The notes under the pieces are model-generated. The model did not search any database. It was not told the DNA's origin and saw nothing but the letters and a program-made list of their open reading frames with translations. From Luminiphilus sp. (GTDB lineage Bacteria > Pseudomonadota > Gammaproteobacteria > Pseudomonadales > Halieaceae): 39,872 nucleotides of DNA. Shown here one piece after another: positions 13,058 through 27,716 of this stretch; position 1 is the first letter of the stretch, and the number at the start of each line of letters is the position of its first letter. Made by a program: the position numbers and the translations under genes. The stretch covers positions 1 through 39,872 of the forward strand of contig JAAXJC010000220.1 in assembly GCA_012270045.1 (NCBI GenBank), in the 5' to 3' direction.

Positions 13058-13774
13058 ATGACTATCATTGCCCTGCTACCCGATACACTGGCGCTACACG
13101 ACGATACGCTCAACATCTGGGTTAACGGCCTTGGCGACGAGGACCGGCAGCGTATCGGCCACTTCCAAGCCGGCAACCGCCGCCGGGAGTTTGTGGTGGC
13201 CAGGGCATTGCTGGCTGCCCTGGCCCGTGAGCAACTGGGTGCCGTGGCGCGGGTGGCGTCCGCCACCGGCGAACCCCCACGCCTGCTTACCGCCACGGGA
13301 GACAACATGGCCTGCAGTATCAGTCACTCGGGCAATGCCGTGCTGGTGGGTCTCACTGACCAGGGCAGCATCGGCGTCGATGTAGAGCGTCATCGGCCCC
13401 GAACGCTGGACCGCCTGGTGGACCGTTATTTCTGGCAGCAAGGCCGGGACTTTTTCCACAGCCAGACGAGCGAAGCAGCACAGCACTGGTTCTACCGGGC
13501 CTGGTGTACCCGGGAGGCCCTGCTGAAATACCGGGGCGAGGGCAACCTGTTTCAGGCACTGGGTTCGCCCCTGGCTTTGGCGTTTCCGACTGAGGCCCGT
13601 GTCGGACAAAGCGAACAACTGACCCTGGCCACGGTCTTCGACGGTCCCGGGGAGCCCGATGTCGTGGTCGCGGGGGCTGGCAGGGACGGTCGATTGTCCT
13701 TTAGCCCGCCAGAGCCCAGTGGTCCCCTACCCCAGCTCGAGGGCTTAGTTGCTGCACCACCCGGGCCGGTCTGA
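13058..13774 (+). CDS. 4'-phosphopantetheinyl transferase (Sfp/AcpT superfamily)
   Basis: A 238-residue enzyme that should transfer 4'-phosphopantetheine from coenzyme A to a conserved serine of carrier proteins. The magnesium-binding GVDVE motif has Asp108 and Glu110; the second motif reads W149-C-T-R-E153-A-L-L-K157, where Arg152 replaces the usual Lys of WxxKEAxxK, a mild change. The N-terminal half carries a basic FQAGNRRREFVVARALL segment typical of Sfp-type proteins that bind the CoA phosphate. No polyketide, peptide or fatty acid synthase gene is nearby, so its carrier partner is elsewhere. The last 74 bp overlap, tail to tail, the 3' end of the unknown gene on the other strand. Confidence 0.87.
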   Translation: MTIIALLPDTLALHDDTLNIWVNGLGDEDRQRIGHFQAGNRRREFVVARALLAALAREQLGAVARVASATGEPPRLLTATGDNMACSISHSGNAVLVGLTDQGSIGVDVERHRPRTLDRLVDRYFWQQGRDFFHSQTSEAAQHWFYRAWCTREALLKYRGEGNLFQALGSPLALAFPTEARVGQSEQLTLATVFDGPGEPDVVVAGAGRDGRLSFSPPEPSGPLPQLEGLVAAPPGPV

Positions 13775-21911: not shown

Positions 21912-22087
21912 GAAACGGGGTCCCGTAGTCCTGTGATTGCGTGTGGCGGATTTCCCACTGTAACCCAGCTGTGATAAATCACCGAAGCCTTCGCGCTACT
22001 ATGTACTTTGCCCACCGTGACCAGCCGTGTATGTTGAACTGGCCAGTGGCGTTATTGCCGCCCCCAACGTCACCAGAGGATTGTTTG

Positions 22088-24346
22088 TTGACTCTTTCAG
22101 AATTGCTTGCCGACATCGAAGCATCGGAGCCCGGGCCGGGCACCGCCGCCATTTTTGATTTCGACGGCACCATTATTGCGGGCTACTCAGCGACGGTATT
22201 TCTCCAGGATGCCCTGACCCGGGGCGAGCTGAAGCCCAATGAACTGTACGAACTGACCCGGGCAATGACCGGGTTTGGATTGGGCAACATGGGCTTCTCC
22301 GCCCTGATGGCCGTTCATGCCCAATACCTTGAGGGGCGCAGTGAGGCGGAATACAGCCGCAACAGCGAACGCTTGTTCCGGAAGAAAATTGCCCGGCTGA
22401 TCTACCCCGAAACCCGGGAGCTGATTGCTGCCCACAAGGCCATGGGGCACACAGTGGCCATTGTCAGCTCCGCGACCCCCTACCAGGTGGAGCCTGCGGC
22501 CAGGGACCTGGATATAGACCATGTGTTCAGTACCCGCCTGGAGGTAAAGGATGGCGCTTTCACGGGCGCCGTGATCAAACCCACCTGCTTCGGCGAGGGC
22601 AAGGTTCAGGCGGCCATGGCCCTTGCAGAAACCACCGGTGCAGACCTGGAGCAAAGCTTTTTTTACTCGGACAGCAGCGACGACATACAGTTGCTGGAGT
22701 ACATCGGGCGCCCGGTGACCCTGAATCCCCGCAACCGCCTCAAGCAAATCACCCGGGAACGACACTGGCCAACCGCCACCTTTGACAGCCGGGGGCGGAT
22801 TTCAGTCAATCGTTTCCTGCGCTCGGTTGCTGCCACGGGCTCCGTGGTCAGCAGTGTTGCCGCTGCGCTGCCCATCTATGCCCTAACCGGCAGCAAACGG
22901 GATTCCCTGAACTTTTCGATATCCCTGTTCGCCGATACCACCAGCGCCCTGATCGGGCTGGACCTTGATGTCAGCGGCGAGGAAAATCTCTGGCGCCAGC
23001 GGCCGGCGGTGTTCATGTTCAACCACCAGAGCAAGGCCGATGTCGCCATCATGGCGCGCCTGGTGCGCCGGGACGTGGTCGGCGTGGGGAAAAAGGAAAT
23101 CCAGCGGATGCCCCTGATTGGACAGGCCATGGGTGCCGCCGGCGTGGTGTTTATTGACCGCTCCGATCGGAGCAAGGCCATCGAATCCATGGCACCGCTG
23201 GTGGCGGCCATGAAAGACGAGGGGAAATCCCTCGTGATTGCACCTGAGGGTACCCGGGCACCGACGCGCAAACTGGCACCGTTCAAAAAGGGCGGCTTCC
23301 ACATGGCCATGCAGGTGGGGGTTCCCATTGTGCCGGTGGTTATCCACAACGCCGGTGATATTGCACCCAAGGGCGATTTTGTCTTTCAGCCAGGCACCGT
23401 GCGGGTGGAGGTGCTGCCCCCCGTGGATACCTCTGGCTGGTCGACGGAACGCATGAACGAACAGGTGACAGAGGTCCGCAACCTGTTTCTCAGGGCGCTG
23501 GGGCAACCGGAGCAAACGGTCGCTGAAGCGCTGCGGGAAAGCAGTGAGCTACCCGAGGACATGCGGCCCGAAAAGGCCGGCAGCACGCGCAAAAAGACAC
23601 CCGCCAAAAAGAAAGCGGGGGTACGGGGCCGACTGGTGAGTGCCGCAAACCGGGTCAGGGGCAAGAGAGCACCGGCGGGTGTGACCATGGACACTGCTCC
23701 GGCAACGACCACCGGCAGCAAGACAGGCGCCAGAGGCACAACAAAACGCAAAACCCAGGCCAAGGCGGCGGGGTCCTCGGGCACAGTAAAGACAAAGGCG
23801 AAGGCAAAGGCAAAGGCAAAGGCAAAATCCAAAACCACCGTGAAGGCCAAAGCTACGGCCGCTAAAGTAGGCGGAAGCCGCGCGACCAAACAGGGGGTCA
23901 GCGCTGTCAAATCCAAGGCGGCAGCTAAGGCAAAGGCGAAAGCAAAGACAAAATCCAAAACCACCTTGAAGGCCAAAGCTACGACCACTAAAGGAAGCGG
24001 CGGGCCAGCGGCCAAGGGGGTGGGCGCTGCCAAATCCAGGGCGACAGCCAAAACGAAGACAAAGGCAAAATCCACAGAGACAGCCAAGGCAGCGGCGAAA
24101 ACAAAGTCAACAACAAGGACCAATGGCAGCAAGACCAGGGCAGCAGCCAATAGCGCGGGCAGCAGAACTACAACCAAGGCCAAAACCAAGGCCAAAGCGC
24201 GGGCAGCCTCCGGCAGCAGCACCGGGAAGTCGTCAACGCAAACTGGCAGCAGGGCGGGCAAGCCCGCAACCACAGCGTCAGCCCGGTCCCGGACAAGGCC
24301 GCCCCGGCGGGCTGCCGTTAAGCCAAAACTGGCAGGTTCTTCCTAA
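22088..24346 (+). CDS. HAD-IB phosphatase / PlsC acyltransferase fusion with a histone-H1-like Lys/Ala-rich tail
   Basis: A 752-residue protein in three parts. Residues about 20-230 are a HAD-IB phosphatase: nucleophile motif DFDGT (24-28), VSSATP as motif II, and YSDSSDD as the metal-binding motif. Residues about 290-480 are a PlsC-type 1-acylglycerol-3-phosphate acyltransferase with HQSKAD (313-318, the HX4D catalytic pair), FIDR and EGTR (387-390). Residues about 496-752 form a low-complexity tail of Lys, Ala, Thr, Ser, Gly and Arg with no aromatic and almost no acidic residue. The frame is open from 21941, but the TTG at 22088 has AGAGGA 7 bases upstream and gives a normal HAD start. It is the first gene of a lipid operon. 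The phosphatase/acyltransferase fusion is known (mycobacterial PlsC); the tail is unusual. Confidence 0.85.
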   Translation: MTLSELLADIEASEPGPGTAAIFDFDGTIIAGYSATVFLQDALTRGELKPNELYELTRAMTGFGLGNMGFSALMAVHAQYLEGRSEAEYSRNSERLFRKKIARLIYPETRELIAAHKAMGHTVAIVSSATPYQVEPAARDLDIDHVFSTRLEVKDGAFTGAVIKPTCFGEGKVQAAMALAETTGADLEQSFFYSDSSDDIQLLEYIGRPVTLNPRNRLKQITRERHWPTATFDSRGRISVNRFLRSVAATGSVVSSVAAALPIYALTGSKRDSLNFSISLFADTTSALIGLDLDVSGEENLWRQRPAVFMFNHQSKADVAIMARLVRRDVVGVGKKEIQRMPLIGQAMGAAGVVFIDRSDRSKAIESMAPLVAAMKDEGKSLVIAPEGTRAPTRKLAPFKKGGFHMAMQVGVPIVPVVIHNAGDIAPKGDFVFQPGTVRVEVLPPVDTSGWSTERMNEQVTEVRNLFLRALGQPEQTVAEALRESSELPEDMRPEKAGSTRKKTPAKKKAGVRGRLVSAANRVRGKRAPAGVTMDTAPATTTGSKTGARGTTKRKTQAKAAGSSGTVKTKAKAKAKAKAKSKTTVKAKATAAKVGGSRATKQGVSAVKSKAAAKAKAKAKTKSKTTLKAKATTTKGSGGPAAKGVGAAKSRATAKTKTKAKSTETAKAAAKTKSTTRTNGSKTRAAANSAGSRTTTKAKTKAKARAASGSSTGKSSTQTGSRAGKPATTASARSRTRPPRRAAVKPKLAGSS
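23795..23824 (+). repeat. Hexanucleotide repeat, five tandem copies encoding (Lys-Ala)5
   Basis: Five in-frame copies of AAGGCA (the first ending in G) encode alternating Lys-Ala in the tail of the HAD/PlsC protein. Copy-number change here would alter tail length by two residues without a frameshift. Confidence 0.8.
23823..24076 (+). repeat. Diverged 39-42-codon repeats in the Lys-rich tail
   Basis: A block beginning CAAAATCCAAAACCACC at 23823 recurs at 23949, 126 bp (42 codons) later, with near identity over about 50 bp (KSKTT-KAKAT in both). A shorter related start, CAAAATCCAC, lies at 24066, 117 bp further on. The spacing keeps frame, so the tail seems to have grown by internal duplication. 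Confidence 0.65.
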
Positions 24347-24355
24347 GCCCGGGGT

Positions 24356-26725
24356 ATGGCCAATCACGCGCCAGACATTGTCCAGAGGGATTCACCCTGG
24401 CCCGACGATGATCGCCCCATCACCTTCCTGTTGGACGCGAACAGTAGTCTGGAGCGGCAACTGCTGGTCGACTGGATAGAAGCCCATCGTCCCCCGGGGG
24501 CGGAAGCTAAGGTTGTCCACCTGTCACTGGGTGACGACCGCAAGCCCCTGGAGGTGACGCCTCTCCTGAATGCCATCGCAAGCGGCTCCAACACCCTCGT
24601 TGCACCGCTGAGGGTGGCCTGGACGCCCAGCGACCGGGCCTATGCGGCGGGGCCGCGGCTGATCGACCTGCTACAGGGCCCGGAACGTCGACCCGGCCCC
24701 CTGCGGGCGCGCTATATCCTCAGACGGCATCCCGAGCGGGTCCACCTGGTAAGGGGATCTCCGGATGGCACGGGCACCATGGCACAGCGGTTCAGCGGCA
24801 AGTACAACCTGGACGCCGAGGGGCACGGGGAAGCCTTCGCCATCTTCGTCGCCCGGCAGGCTGCCATCGTGCTGGATGCTACCGAACGCAAACTACAGGG
24901 CGGTCGGTATAAGGTGCCGCGCTACATTGCCCAGTCATTGCGCAGCAACCAGACCCTCAAGGACCAGTTGTTCGCCATTGCCTCGGAGCGCGGCGAACCG
25001 AGAACCGAGGTCATCGAAGAGGCCAATGAATACTTCAATGAGATGATCTCCATACCCACCAGTTTCTGGCTGGATGTCTGGATCAAGTTCTCCAACTTCT
25101 GCCTGGGTCTGGGCTATGAGAGGCAGCTCAACTACGACCCGGAGGACCTTGAGCGGGTGAGAACCATTGTCCGCAATCATCCCTCGGCGCTGTTGTGGAC
25201 CCACAAAACCTATATCGACGGCTTCGTGGTCCCAAAACTGCTGTTCGACAACAATTTTCCGGTGCCCCATTTTTTCGCCGGGGCCAACCTCAACATTCCC
25301 GTGATGGGGCGCCTGGTCAAACGCGCCGGGGGCGTCTTTATCAAGCGCACCTTTGCCGACAACCCGGTCTATAAAGCCGCCCTGCGCCACTATATCGGTT
25401 ACCTGATGGAGAAACGGTTTCCCCTGACCTGGTCCTTTGAAGGTACGCGCTCGCGCCTGGGTAAATTGATGCCGCCGAAATACGGGGTTCTGAAATATGT
25501 GCTTGAGGGCTGTCACAGCGCAGGCTCCTCCGACATCCATATTATTCCTGTAACGGTGTCCTACGACCTGATCCGCGATGCCGAAGAATACGCCCGGGAA
25601 CAGTCGGGGGTACCCAAGGCCCCCGAATCCCTGAGCTGGCTGGTAGGCTACATCCGCAGCCTGGCCCGACCCATGGGCAAGATCTATGTCGACTTTGGCG
25701 AACCGGTTGTGCTGCCGGAGGCACCCAGCCCCGACGACCGTATGGCCGTAGCAAAGATAGCGTTCCAGGTCGCGGTGGAAGCCAACAGGGTGACGCCCAT
25801 CACCTATCCTGCGGTCATCTGCATGGCATTGCTGGGCGTGTACCCGCGAGCACAAACCGAATCCGAGGTCGCCGCGACCGTGGATGACATCATCACCTGG
25901 GCCAAAGGGCGCAACCTCAGGATGTCATCGGACCTGGACCAGCAGCAACTGCAGGATACGGGACAACTGCTGGACCTGATGATGGGTGAGGGCATCATCA
26001 CCCGCTTCACGGGGGGACCGACCACCGTCTACGGCATTGAAGCGGGCAACGTGGCTGTGGCCAGCTACTACCGCAATACCATCGTGCACTTCTTCGTGAA
26101 CAAAGCCCTCATCGAACTGGCCCTGATTGCAGCAGCGGAAAGCGAAGCACAGGGCAGTGCCTCGGAGCTGTTCTGGCAGGAGGTACTTGAACTTCGGGAC
26201 CTGTTCAAATTCGAGTTTTTCTATCCACCCACCGAAGCCTTCCGGCAGGAGATTGCGGCGGAACTGGAGCTGCTGGACCCGAACTGGGCATCGGAACTTT
26301 CCGAGGGCAGCAAGGGCGCCCGACGCCTGCTGCTGCGGGCCAGCCCCCATGTGGCCCACATGACCCTGCAGATGTATGTGGAGTCCTACAGTATCGCCGC
26401 CGATCTGCTGGCGAACCTGGCGCCCGGGGAAACCATTGGGACAGAGGATTTCATCGATCGCTGCATGAATTATGGTAAACAGGCACTGTTACAGCGGCGA
26501 ATCTCCAGCGAGGCCTCAAACCTGAAACTGTTATTCAAAAATGCCTGGGACATGCTGACGTCCAGAAACCTGACGGACCAGTCGCTGCCGGACTACAGCG
26601 ACGCGCGACTGGCCCAGGCGGCGGCGCTGGATCGACTGATTCACCGGGTAGAAATAAGCCGGGCCTCGGCTATTGCCAGCCGCGGTCGACCCACGATCAG
26701 GGATGGAGCCCGGGGTGGCCTGTAA
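24356..26725 (+). CDS. plsB: Glycerol-3-phosphate 1-O-acyltransferase (PlsB)
   Basis: A 789-residue PlsB-type enzyme, which acylates sn-glycerol-3-phosphate at position 1. The acyltransferase core has HKTYID (residues 283-288, the HX4D catalytic pair), a GVFIKRTF block, FEGTRSRLGKL (starting at 361) and a HIIPVTVSYD block, in the usual order of motifs I-IV. The long N-terminal and C-terminal helical regions are typical of PlsB. The length equals that of mycobacterial PlsB2 as I remember it, and the adjacent HAD-PlsC fusion is also the mycobacterial neighbour. The ATG is 9 bp after the stop of that fusion, and the 3' end overlaps gpsA by 11 bp. The enzyme should act at the cytoplasmic membrane. 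Confidence 0.9.
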   Translation: MANHAPDIVQRDSPWPDDDRPITFLLDANSSLERQLLVDWIEAHRPPGAEAKVVHLSLGDDRKPLEVTPLLNAIASGSNTLVAPLRVAWTPSDRAYAAGPRLIDLLQGPERRPGPLRARYILRRHPERVHLVRGSPDGTGTMAQRFSGKYNLDAEGHGEAFAIFVARQAAIVLDATERKLQGGRYKVPRYIAQSLRSNQTLKDQLFAIASERGEPRTEVIEEANEYFNEMISIPTSFWLDVWIKFSNFCLGLGYERQLNYDPEDLERVRTIVRNHPSALLWTHKTYIDGFVVPKLLFDNNFPVPHFFAGANLNIPVMGRLVKRAGGVFIKRTFADNPVYKAALRHYIGYLMEKRFPLTWSFEGTRSRLGKLMPPKYGVLKYVLEGCHSAGSSDIHIIPVTVSYDLIRDAEEYAREQSGVPKAPESLSWLVGYIRSLARPMGKIYVDFGEPVVLPEAPSPDDRMAVAKIAFQVAVEANRVTPITYPAVICMALLGVYPRAQTESEVAATVDDIITWAKGRNLRMSSDLDQQQLQDTGQLLDLMMGEGIITRFTGGPTTVYGIEAGNVAVASYYRNTIVHFFVNKALIELALIAAAESEAQGSASELFWQEVLELRDLFKFEFFYPPTEAFRQEIAAELELLDPNWASELSEGSKGARRLLLRASPHVAHMTLQMYVESYSIAADLLANLAPGETIGTEDFIDRCMNYGKQALLQRRISSEASNLKLLFKNAWDMLTSRNLTDQSLPDYSDARLAQAAALDRLIHRVEISRASAIASRGRPTIRDGARGGL

Positions 26726-27716
26726 AATAGCAGTGATGGGAGGCGGCAGCTGGGGCACCACGGTGGCCTCGCTGGTGGCCCGCAACGCCGAGGTCATGCT
26801 CTGGGCCAGGGACAGCGGCACCGTTGACGATATCAACACAAACCACAGAAATAGCCGTTATCTGGGTGATGCGGCATTGCATGCATCCCTGCGCGGTACC
26901 ACCGATCCGGAACAGGCCGTGGCCAGGGCGGATGCCGTCATCATGGGTATACCGTCCGATAACTTCCGCAACGTTCTCAGTGACATTGCCCCGTTGCTGC
27001 CCGGGGGCGTGCCCCTGATCAGTCTGACCAAGGGACTGGAGCGGGGGTCGAAGTTACGCATGACCGAAGTCTGTCGGGAGGTAGCCCCGGGGCGGCCCGT
27101 CGGCGTGCTCACCGGACCCAACCTGGCACGGGAAATTATGGCGGGACAGGCCGCCGCCAGCGTCCTGGCACTGGACGACCCGGCGCCCCAAAGCTGGCTG
27201 CAACCCCTGCTCAATGTCGGCCTGTTCAGGGTCTATACCAACCCGGACCATGTCGGCTGCGAATTGGGCGGTGTGTTCAAAAATATTATTGCCATCGCGG
27301 TGGGCATGGGCGATGGCCTGGGTGCCGGGGACAATACCCGCGCCGCGCTCATTACCCGGGGGCTGGCGGAGATGACCCGACTGGGAACCGTGCTGGGCGG
27401 TCGGCCGGAGACTTTCGCCGGACTGGCTGGCATGGGCGACATGATCGCTACCTGTACCAGTCCCCAGAGCCGCAACCGGCATGTCGGTATTGAACTTGCC
27501 AAGGGACACAGCATCGACGCCATTATCGACAGCATGCATATGGTCGCCGAGGGTGTGAAGAGCGCACCCACGGTGATCGAACTGGCCCAGGAACACGACC
27601 TCGACATGCCCATCTCCCAGGACGTGTTCAAGGTCGTGACCGGCGCGGCGAATGCCCGGGGGGTTTACCGCGGCTTGCTGCGCACCCGGGCGGCGGCGGA
27701 GTCCGAACCGGGCTGA
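26715..27716 (+). CDS. gpsA: NAD(P)+-dependent sn-glycerol-3-phosphate dehydrogenase
   Basis: GpsA reduces dihydroxyacetone phosphate to sn-glycerol-3-phosphate, the acceptor used by PlsB just upstream. The nucleotide-binding motif GGGSWGT is at residues 9-15, the TGPNLAREI block follows, and the catalytic lysine is Lys189 in GVFKNIIAIA, with the GLGAGDNTRAALITRG substrate loop. I chose the GTG at 26715 because GGAG sits 6 bases upstream and the N-terminus matches the family; it gives 333 residues, the normal length. ATG 26703 and TTG 26673 are possible longer starts. The start lies inside the plsB end, so translation is probably coupled. A 5-bp GC stem (27718-27730) follows without a T-run. 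Confidence 0.93.
   Translation: MACKIAVMGGGSWGTTVASLVARNAEVMLWARDSGTVDDINTNHRNSRYLGDAALHASLRGTTDPEQAVARADAVIMGIPSDNFRNVLSDIAPLLPGGVPLISLTKGLERGSKLRMTEVCREVAPGRPVGVLTGPNLAREIMAGQAAASVLALDDPAPQSWLQPLLNVGLFRVYTNPDHVGCELGGVFKNIIAIAVGMGDGLGAGDNTRAALITRGLAEMTRLGTVLGGRPETFAGLAGMGDMIATCTSPQSRNRHVGIELAKGHSIDAIIDSMHMVAEGVKSAPTVIELAQEHDLDMPISQDVFKVVTGAANARGVYRGLLRTRAAAESEPG

Follow-up and report, generated by a model that had tools for sequence, protein, structure and literature searches.

The window, i.e., the whole stretch of DNA that was analysed (39,872 nucleotides of a Luminiphilus sp. contig), holds on its forward strand a gene for a two-domain HAD-PlsC protein with a long polycationic C-terminal tail, followed by plsB and gpsA (Table 1); an M48 peptidase gene comes next after gpsA. 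The reading frame 21941-24346 (+) is uninterrupted across the whole tail. Since homologues start 10-11 codons before their conserved core (ATG or TTG at this distance in 8/8 homologues inspected, the distance for L189 being taken from its shorter match), one of the two TTG codons given in Table 1 is the likely start. The product would then comprise approximately 495 enzyme and 258 tail residues, which fits the 495-residue enzyme part of the original prediction. An ORF on the reverse strand (23386-24273) overlaps the HAD-PlsC gene and was taken as a shadow of its Lys/Ala-rich frame.

Table 1. Features of the HAD-PlsC locus, in window positions
Feature	Position	Strand	Evidence or remark
HAD-PlsC gene	22088..24346	+	likely TTG start 22085 or 22088; longest ORF from GTG 21941
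HAD-IB phosphatase-like domain	22148..22699	+	PF12710 E 1.1e-33; TIGR01490 157.7 bits, cut-off 98.3
PlsC-type 1-acylglycerol-3-phosphate acyltransferase domain	22964..23344	+	PF01553 E 7.5e-34; TIGR00530 112.2, cut-off 102.95
Junction between enzyme and tail, 21 residues	23507..23569	+	by-eye homologue comparison
Polycationic tail, predicted disordered, 258 residues, net +69	23570..24343	+	composition; pLDDT mostly <50; purifying selection on charge in relatives
Tandem repeat, AAAGGC hexamer (Lys-Ala)	23788..23826	+	Tandem Repeats Finder; repeat length as assembled
C-terminal end motif V-K-P-K-L	24317..24331	+	motif class kept in relatives' tails; synonymous sites vary
PlsB-type glycerol-3-phosphate acyltransferase, partner gene	24356..26725	+	PF19277 E 5.1e-72; PRK03355 711.6 bits
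gpsA, glycerol-3-phosphate dehydrogenase	26718..27716	+	PRK12439 462.7, cut-off 436

The HAD-IB and acylglycerol-phosphate acyltransferase models (TIGR01490 and TIGR00530) both scored above their cut-offs in the window protein, and both Pfam enzyme domains (HAD, PF12710; Acyltransferase, PF01553) lie N-terminal to the tail. The catalytic residues of the two domains, which we take to be DxDGT, Ser, Lys and Asp for the HAD part and NHxxxxD and EGTR for the acyltransferase part, are invariant in all 14 aligned cores (the window protein and 13 others at 53-79% identity). When a profile of these cores was searched against known structures, the acyltransferase part matched PDB 5kym (E 6.8e-28), the PlsC of Thermotoga maritima; the HAD part matched the uncharacterised protein 3fvv, and structures of phosphoserine phosphatases were also among the best ones. 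A junction related to the one between enzyme and tail was also seen by eye in tail-reduced Luminiphilus.

The plsB gene begins 9 bp downstream of the HAD-PlsC gene, and its product scored just under the cut-off of PRK03355 (721), a model that we take to describe PlsB of actinobacterial type, and fitted the canonical PlsB model TIGR03703 far less well (173.2 bits). Among the matches listed, 67 of the 74 tailed loci with a core identity of at least 60% have plsB no more than 500 bp downstream, and it was not found in the 1.7-1.8 kb of downstream DNA of the other seven. Within the genus, HAD-PlsC (searched at E 1e-40) and PlsB occurred in the identical 33 out of 57 genomes and neither was found in the other 24, while gpsA was present in 48/57, including some genomes without the pair. 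Because the two genes are found together or missing together and gpsA occurs without them, the pair looks accessory, and HAD-PlsC looks like one half of an accessory HAD-PlsC/PlsB pair more than like a housekeeping phosphatidate maker. Six PF01553 matches were found in the window genome, one of them a separate small PlsC-like acyltransferase. The phosphatidate-making enzyme of the original prediction stands as a complete HAD-PlsC; the pair to which it belongs was not found in those 24 genomes and goes with WS/DGAT neutral-lipid genes (see below).

The tail contains 52 Lys and 20 Arg vs. 2 Glu and 1 Asp, 87.6% of it is made up of K/A/T/S/G/R, and F/W/Y are absent. A tail of about 257 residues dominated by these six residues, free of aromatics and placed after a complete HAD-PlsC enzyme had been described beforehand, and this observation is confirmed (258 residues counted, both Pfam domains upstream). 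An AlphaFold2 model of modest confidence (15-sequence input alignment, mean pLDDT 65.7, pTM 0.42) shows secondary structure, both helices and strands, as far as approximately residue 492 and none in residues 496-752, nearly all of which have a pLDDT <50, and the tail is predicted to be intrinsically disordered. The likening to histone H1 held for the polycationic composition and failed at the level of models, as the window tail matched no Pfam family up to E 0.1 and no NCBIfam histone H1-like model up to E 0.001; in relatives, PF07382 (HC2) gave 32.5, 21.1, and 37.2 bits (L034, L158, and L213), all below the cut-off of 40, and no match on L163. KPAA repeats and PAKKA motifs are both absent from the window tail; among the matches listed, the former occur at least once in 22 and the latter in 13 of 99 tails, and 7/99 contain an aromatic residue. 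The spacing of Lys differs between tails of different lineages, which suits electrostatics and not one fold.

Stretches of this type are rare in the congener Luminiphilus syltensis, in a sample of 40 evenly spaced 20-kb pieces from the first 2.13 Mb of its genome (800 kb, 24.5%; its own tailed gene was split by a sample edge and left out). Only 2 of the 688 gene proxies (ORFs ≥100 aa) contained a comparable 60-residue stretch, defined by thresholds of our own choice (≥25% K/R, ≤10% D/E, no aromatics, ≤15% hydrophobics); one of the two looks TolA-like and the other is probably a spurious frame. BLAST of the window tail against its own genome returned the self-match only, which says little about an origin from another H1-like gene since low-complexity matches score poorly.

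The enzyme was searched for at three further levels of relatedness, the genus and family being taken as Luminiphilus and Halieaceae on account of named loci that are identical or nearly so. In the family, 108/140 Halieaceae genomes gave a match at 1e-60 (some via a paralogue only), an order sample gave 25/293 genomes at E 1e-100, and relatives in named genomes were represented by the best 80 of at least 286 loci; 176 sequences were retained after identical entries, incomplete cores and cut-off tails had been dropped. A C-terminus of 30 residues or more was called a tail if its K/R content reached 20% and its net charge +6. By this definition, and among the matches listed, 74 of the 93 distinct orthologues whose core shares 60% identity or more with that of the window carry a tail (10/10 at ≥72% and 64/83 at 60-72% identity), and at lower identities it was seen in 21/35 (53-60%), 3/9 (45-53%), and 1/39 (<45%), with a WS/DGAT-like domain instead of a tail in 8 of the last 39 rows. 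As such tails occur in frame in independent genomes and in so many close orthologues, a frame or assembly error as their source was ruled out, and the distribution across these sequences indicates that the tail is a lineage-wide trait and not a one-off. The homologue comparison proposed together with the original prediction therefore came out in its favour: the closest orthologues carry the tail and the frame is sound.

The 19 untailed sequences at 60-72% identity (among the matches listed) are 18 from Luminiphilus or Halieaceae, with C-termini of 63-90 residues that end in ATRH in 16/18 cases, and L130, whose C-terminus has 123 residues and 17% K/R. In a FastTree core tree, these 18 sequences form one Luminiphilus clade (support 100) together with a single tailed row, L032, the tail of which is barely above the threshold. 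The tail label takes 12 changes on this tree, at least 8 of them forced by well-supported branches, the tree having long branches and unsure deep placements. Outside Gammaproteobacteria, and again among the matches listed, tails were present in Sphingopyxis, other Sphingomonadaceae, a MAG labelled Kordiimonadaceae and one Actinomycetales MAG (L213, 199 residues), with the reservation that the labels of these two MAGs may be wrong. In family f24, the C-terminus spans only 5-10 residues in enzymes at 53-56% identity, 26-56 residues (17-23% K/R) in the copies at 41-45% identity, and 15 in L144 (39% identity). This family was assigned to Spongiibacteraceae on the grounds that L143 and the Zhongshania locus L192 share an identical C-terminus.

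In order to see what is conserved in the tails, 24 pairs were drawn from 96 tailed orthologues (tail ≥35 residues, ≥24% K/R), with each sequence used once and cores 86-98% identical. Tails were aligned by per-codon nucleotide identity without amino-acid information and compared with a neutral simulation, in which the same tails were evolved to the core synonymous divergence of each pair and aligned in the same way. Tail pN was 0.232 and pS 0.494, resulting in a pN/pS of 0.47 vs. 1.03 in the neutral simulation and 0.09 in the cores. Single-base K-R differences were about as frequent as expected (22 vs. 24.6), whereas K-E differences were rare (4 vs. 25.6 expected; Fisher 0.0007 for the ratio to K-R); K-N differences were also low (8 vs. 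28.0), and the neutralising changes K-T (20 vs. 32.2) and K-Q (20 vs. 31.6) were only mildly reduced. The KR fraction was 0.33 vs. 0.18 under simulated drift, aromatics made up none of the partner tails vs. 1.5%, and the share of acidic residues was practically that of the simulated tails (0.055 and 0.056). The low K-E count, the K-R count as expected and the kept K/R content indicate that positive charge is maintained by selection while the sequence itself is held loosely and drifts.

A further element is kept near the C-terminus. Among the matches listed, an end motif of the class [V/A][K/R]PK[L/S/A/G/I/N/T] was found within the last 30 residues of 50/74 tails with a core identity of at least 60%, compared with 2.0 (maximum 10) after shuffling, a control that takes no account of relatedness, and in 1/24 tails at 45-60%. 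An RNA-level cause, i.e., the ribosome site of plsB, was ruled out as third codon positions vary (26 of 50 compared). These data bear on the view of the tail as passive low-complexity sequence, expandable by nature, that repeat slippage has lengthened and that is merely tolerated. Tail lengths from 36 to 279 residues (99 tails among the matches listed, the lower end being set by the 30-residue threshold), the presence of hexamer repeats, of which the AAAGGC repeat in the window is a possible site of length change, and a tail pN/pS well above that of the core would all fit such an extension. However, charge is held against mutation, the end motif is kept far beyond the shuffled expectation, and few comparable stretches occur in the quarter of the L. 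syltensis genome that was sampled, so that we regard passive growth as highly doubtful.

The enzyme co-occurs with WS/DGAT. In the order sample of 293 genomes, PF03007 was found in 25/25 HAD-PlsC genomes vs. 90/268 others, a contrast whose p of 1e-11 overstates the association because the genomes are related, in which 2 of the 115 WS/DGAT matches lie below the cut-off, and in which some of the 268 others (e.g., G132) hold a HAD-PlsC that missed E 1e-100. In the family outside the genus, WS/DGAT was present in 79/83 genomes. Among the matches listed, and in named loci no shorter than 8 kb, a WS/DGAT gene lay within the locus in 14/25 with and 15/34 without a tail, and the 14 tailed ones are mostly of Sphingomonadaceae type and include no Halieaceae. 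In Geodermatophilus and Pseudonocardia, WS/DGAT is fused to the C-terminus of HAD-PlsC (at least 8 rows in one clade, support 100; PF03007 E 2.5e-51 in L203, the sole fusion scanned). The window genome has a single PF03007 match, located on another contig (C86) than the HAD-PlsC gene (C145), and there is thus no WS/DGAT in the operon of the latter. A strict coupling of tail and WS/DGAT was ruled out: no WS/DGAT was found in 6 of the 12 Luminiphilus whose tail could be seen, and two of these 6 genomes are at least 97% complete; Spongiibacteraceae f24 has many WS/DGAT genes, yet its closest enzymes are untailed. Within the genus, WS/DGAT was found in 6/12 tailed vs. 1/19 reduced-tail genomes (p 0.007; G028 and G043 were left out as their tails were not seen), a contrast that goes back to what is essentially a single event in evolution, that depends on incomplete MAGs, and for which an independent-pairs test has no power.

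The closest known counterparts are the HAD-PlsC proteins of actinobacterial TAG operons, i.e., Rhodococcus jostii atf9-plsB-plsC and Mycobacterium tuberculosis Rv2483c, which share with the window the two enzyme domains, the adjacent plsB and the association with WS/DGAT (PMC4850399, PMC10699116, PMC10351704). For the Rhodococcus protein, acyltransferase activity and possible phosphate removal were proposed (PMC4850399, Sci Rep 2016), Rv2483c is among lipid-inclusion-associated proteins (PMC10699116), and some members of the Actinomycetota, Alpha- and Gammaproteobacteria were reported to have HAD-AGPAT next to WS/DGAT, with a function called unresolved there (PMC10351704). Unlike the window protein, the five Rhodococcus, Rhodococcoides and Nocardia homologues inspected (L209, L212, L217, L218, L223) end 1-20 residues past the core, and in contrast to the R. 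jostii atf operon the WS/DGAT of the window genome is on a separate contig.

Comparable tails are known from storage-granule proteins. AlgP, which sits on polyphosphate granules (PMC9239181), and PhaF, the PHA counterpart, are Pseudomonas proteins with Lys/Ala-rich H1-like C-terminal tails thought to tether their granules to the nucleoid (PMC9239181, PMC13052382); they differ from the window protein in having no acyltransferase, N-terminal domains of their own and KPAA repeats. MLDS of R. jostii, a lipid-storage protein of the lipid-droplet surface, binds DNA via its Lys-rich C-terminus (PMC5504291) and differs by its PAKKA motifs. As the known bacterial bearers of such tails link storage bodies with anionic surfaces, we favour, tentatively and at somewhat less than an even chance, an accessory, storage-lipid-type Kennedy-pathway HAD-LPAAT whose disordered tail is an electrostatic tether, with nucleoid DNA as its likeliest target. 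We infer that the neighbouring PlsB would make lysophosphatidate, that the PlsC domain would turn it into phosphatidate, and that the HAD domain possibly dephosphorylates phosphatidate to diacylglycerol for WS/DGAT. The tail would then hold the enzyme, which may reside on the membrane or on lipid bodies, or the lipid body that it would help to form, to a polyanion. Nucleoid DNA is the likeliest one, in the way thought for the AlgP, PhaF, and MLDS tails. A tethering role had been suggested in the original prediction and is plausible by these analogies; its interpretation as a whole is partly supported. Several observations count against the favoured tether to DNA, i.e., the window tail without KPAA, PAKKA or H1-like model matches, the merely mild reduction of K-T and K-Q changes, the acidic fraction at its simulated level, the separation of tail and WS/DGAT in Luminiphilus and f24, and the lack of Halieaceae among the listed tailed WS/DGAT loci.

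HAD-PlsC enzymes and H1-like tails are each known, and, in agreement with the original prediction, no description of a tailed acyltransferase, of a PlsC-WS/DGAT fusion or of the conserved, charge-selected combination was found among the open PMC papers listed. H1-like nucleoid tethers have already been recognised on PHB granules, polyphosphate granules and Rhodococcus lipid droplets; here the H1-like tail sits on an enzyme and not on a structural granule protein. The main text of a 2025 review on bacterial organelle positioning contains the term 'lipid droplet' 0 times (PMC13052382). It is conceivable, if rather unlikely, that a lipid-synthesis enzyme with its own histone-like nucleoid tether positions phosphatidate/diacylglycerol synthesis or nascent storage-lipid bodies on the chromosome, and that tails arose more than once (at least in Proteobacteria and an actinomycete) where other lineages fuse WS/DGAT. 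A charge-selected tail on an enzyme would offer a genetic handle on the site of phosphatidate and storage-lipid synthesis in Gram-negative bacteria, and would be an example of tail function that is readable from charge selection despite sequence drift.

Two other targets of the tail were weighed against nucleoid DNA. As an anionic-lipid clamp, it would fix the enzyme to charged areas of the membrane or to the phospholipid surface of lipid bodies by binding phosphatidylglycerol, cardiolipin or the phosphatidate that the enzyme itself produces. This agrees with an enzyme acting on membrane lipid, with the charge selection, and with HBHA, which depends on its Lys-rich C-terminus for binding phosphoinositides and for the formation of lipid inclusions (PMC6176652). 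HBHA and TadA (mycobacteria, Rhodococcus) are coiled-coil proteins with no acyltransferase. Against a clamp, 258 residues seem more than it requires, and the tail-less f24 orthologues (53-56% identity) and the reduced-tail Luminiphilus clade presumably function without one; we consider a clamp somewhat unlikely, yet the strongest competitor of a tether to DNA. Acyl-ACP is strongly acidic, and the tail might instead recruit it as acyl donor, or another polyanion such as polyphosphate or RNA, for which the similar tail of AlgP on polyphosphate granules would be a precedent (PMC9239181). Untailed homologues presumably have the same chemistry and no ACP or polyphosphate gene was found among the 19 window proteins scanned, and this recruitment appears distinctly unlikely. 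A phosphopantetheinyl transferase gene (PF01648) that could activate ACP lies approximately 8 kb upstream in the window, in a separate operon.

The gene for HAD-PlsC (HAD-IB phosphatase-like and PlsC-type acyltransferase domains) and the adjacent glycerol-3-phosphate acyltransferase gene (PlsB) are gained or lost together in Luminiphilus, with both present in the same 33 of 57 genomes and neither found in the remaining 24, whereas gpsA was present in 48/57.

In one Luminiphilus subclade (loci L017–L033, L108, L109, L146, L147, L182, L188, and L208; L032, just over the tail threshold, was counted as tailed), the cationic tail of HAD-PlsC was replaced by a shorter, near-neutral C-terminus, ending in ATRH at most of the short-C-terminus loci. 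Among relatives, one short motif, V/A-K/R-P-K-x, was retained close to the tail end (within the last 30 residues), and the tail sequence outside it drifts. Several Halieaceae encode a second HAD-PlsC copy (L101–L107), a paralogue at 39–41% identity, from which the cationic tail was absent.

Window coordinates of the features considered
Feature	Position	Remark
4'-phosphopantetheinyl transferase-like gene	13058-13774	PF01648; ~8 kb upstream of the HAD-PlsC gene
HAD-PlsC + PlsB	22088-26725	
V/A-K/R-P-K-x motif	24317-24331	

In Geodermatophilus and Pseudonocardia (L201, L203, L207, L210, L214, L221, L222, and L224, where the ORF extends past the contig end), a C-terminal domain resembling the neutral-lipid synthase WS/DGAT was fused onto HAD-PlsC (checked with Pfam at L203 only, among the 8 fusion loci). 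Judged from sequence, this fusion is a natural single polypeptide of predicted phosphatase, acyltransferase and TAG synthase. Spongiibacteraceae-type genomes carry a WS/DGAT-like gene directly after HAD-PlsC (L133, L134, L136–L139, and L141–L144).
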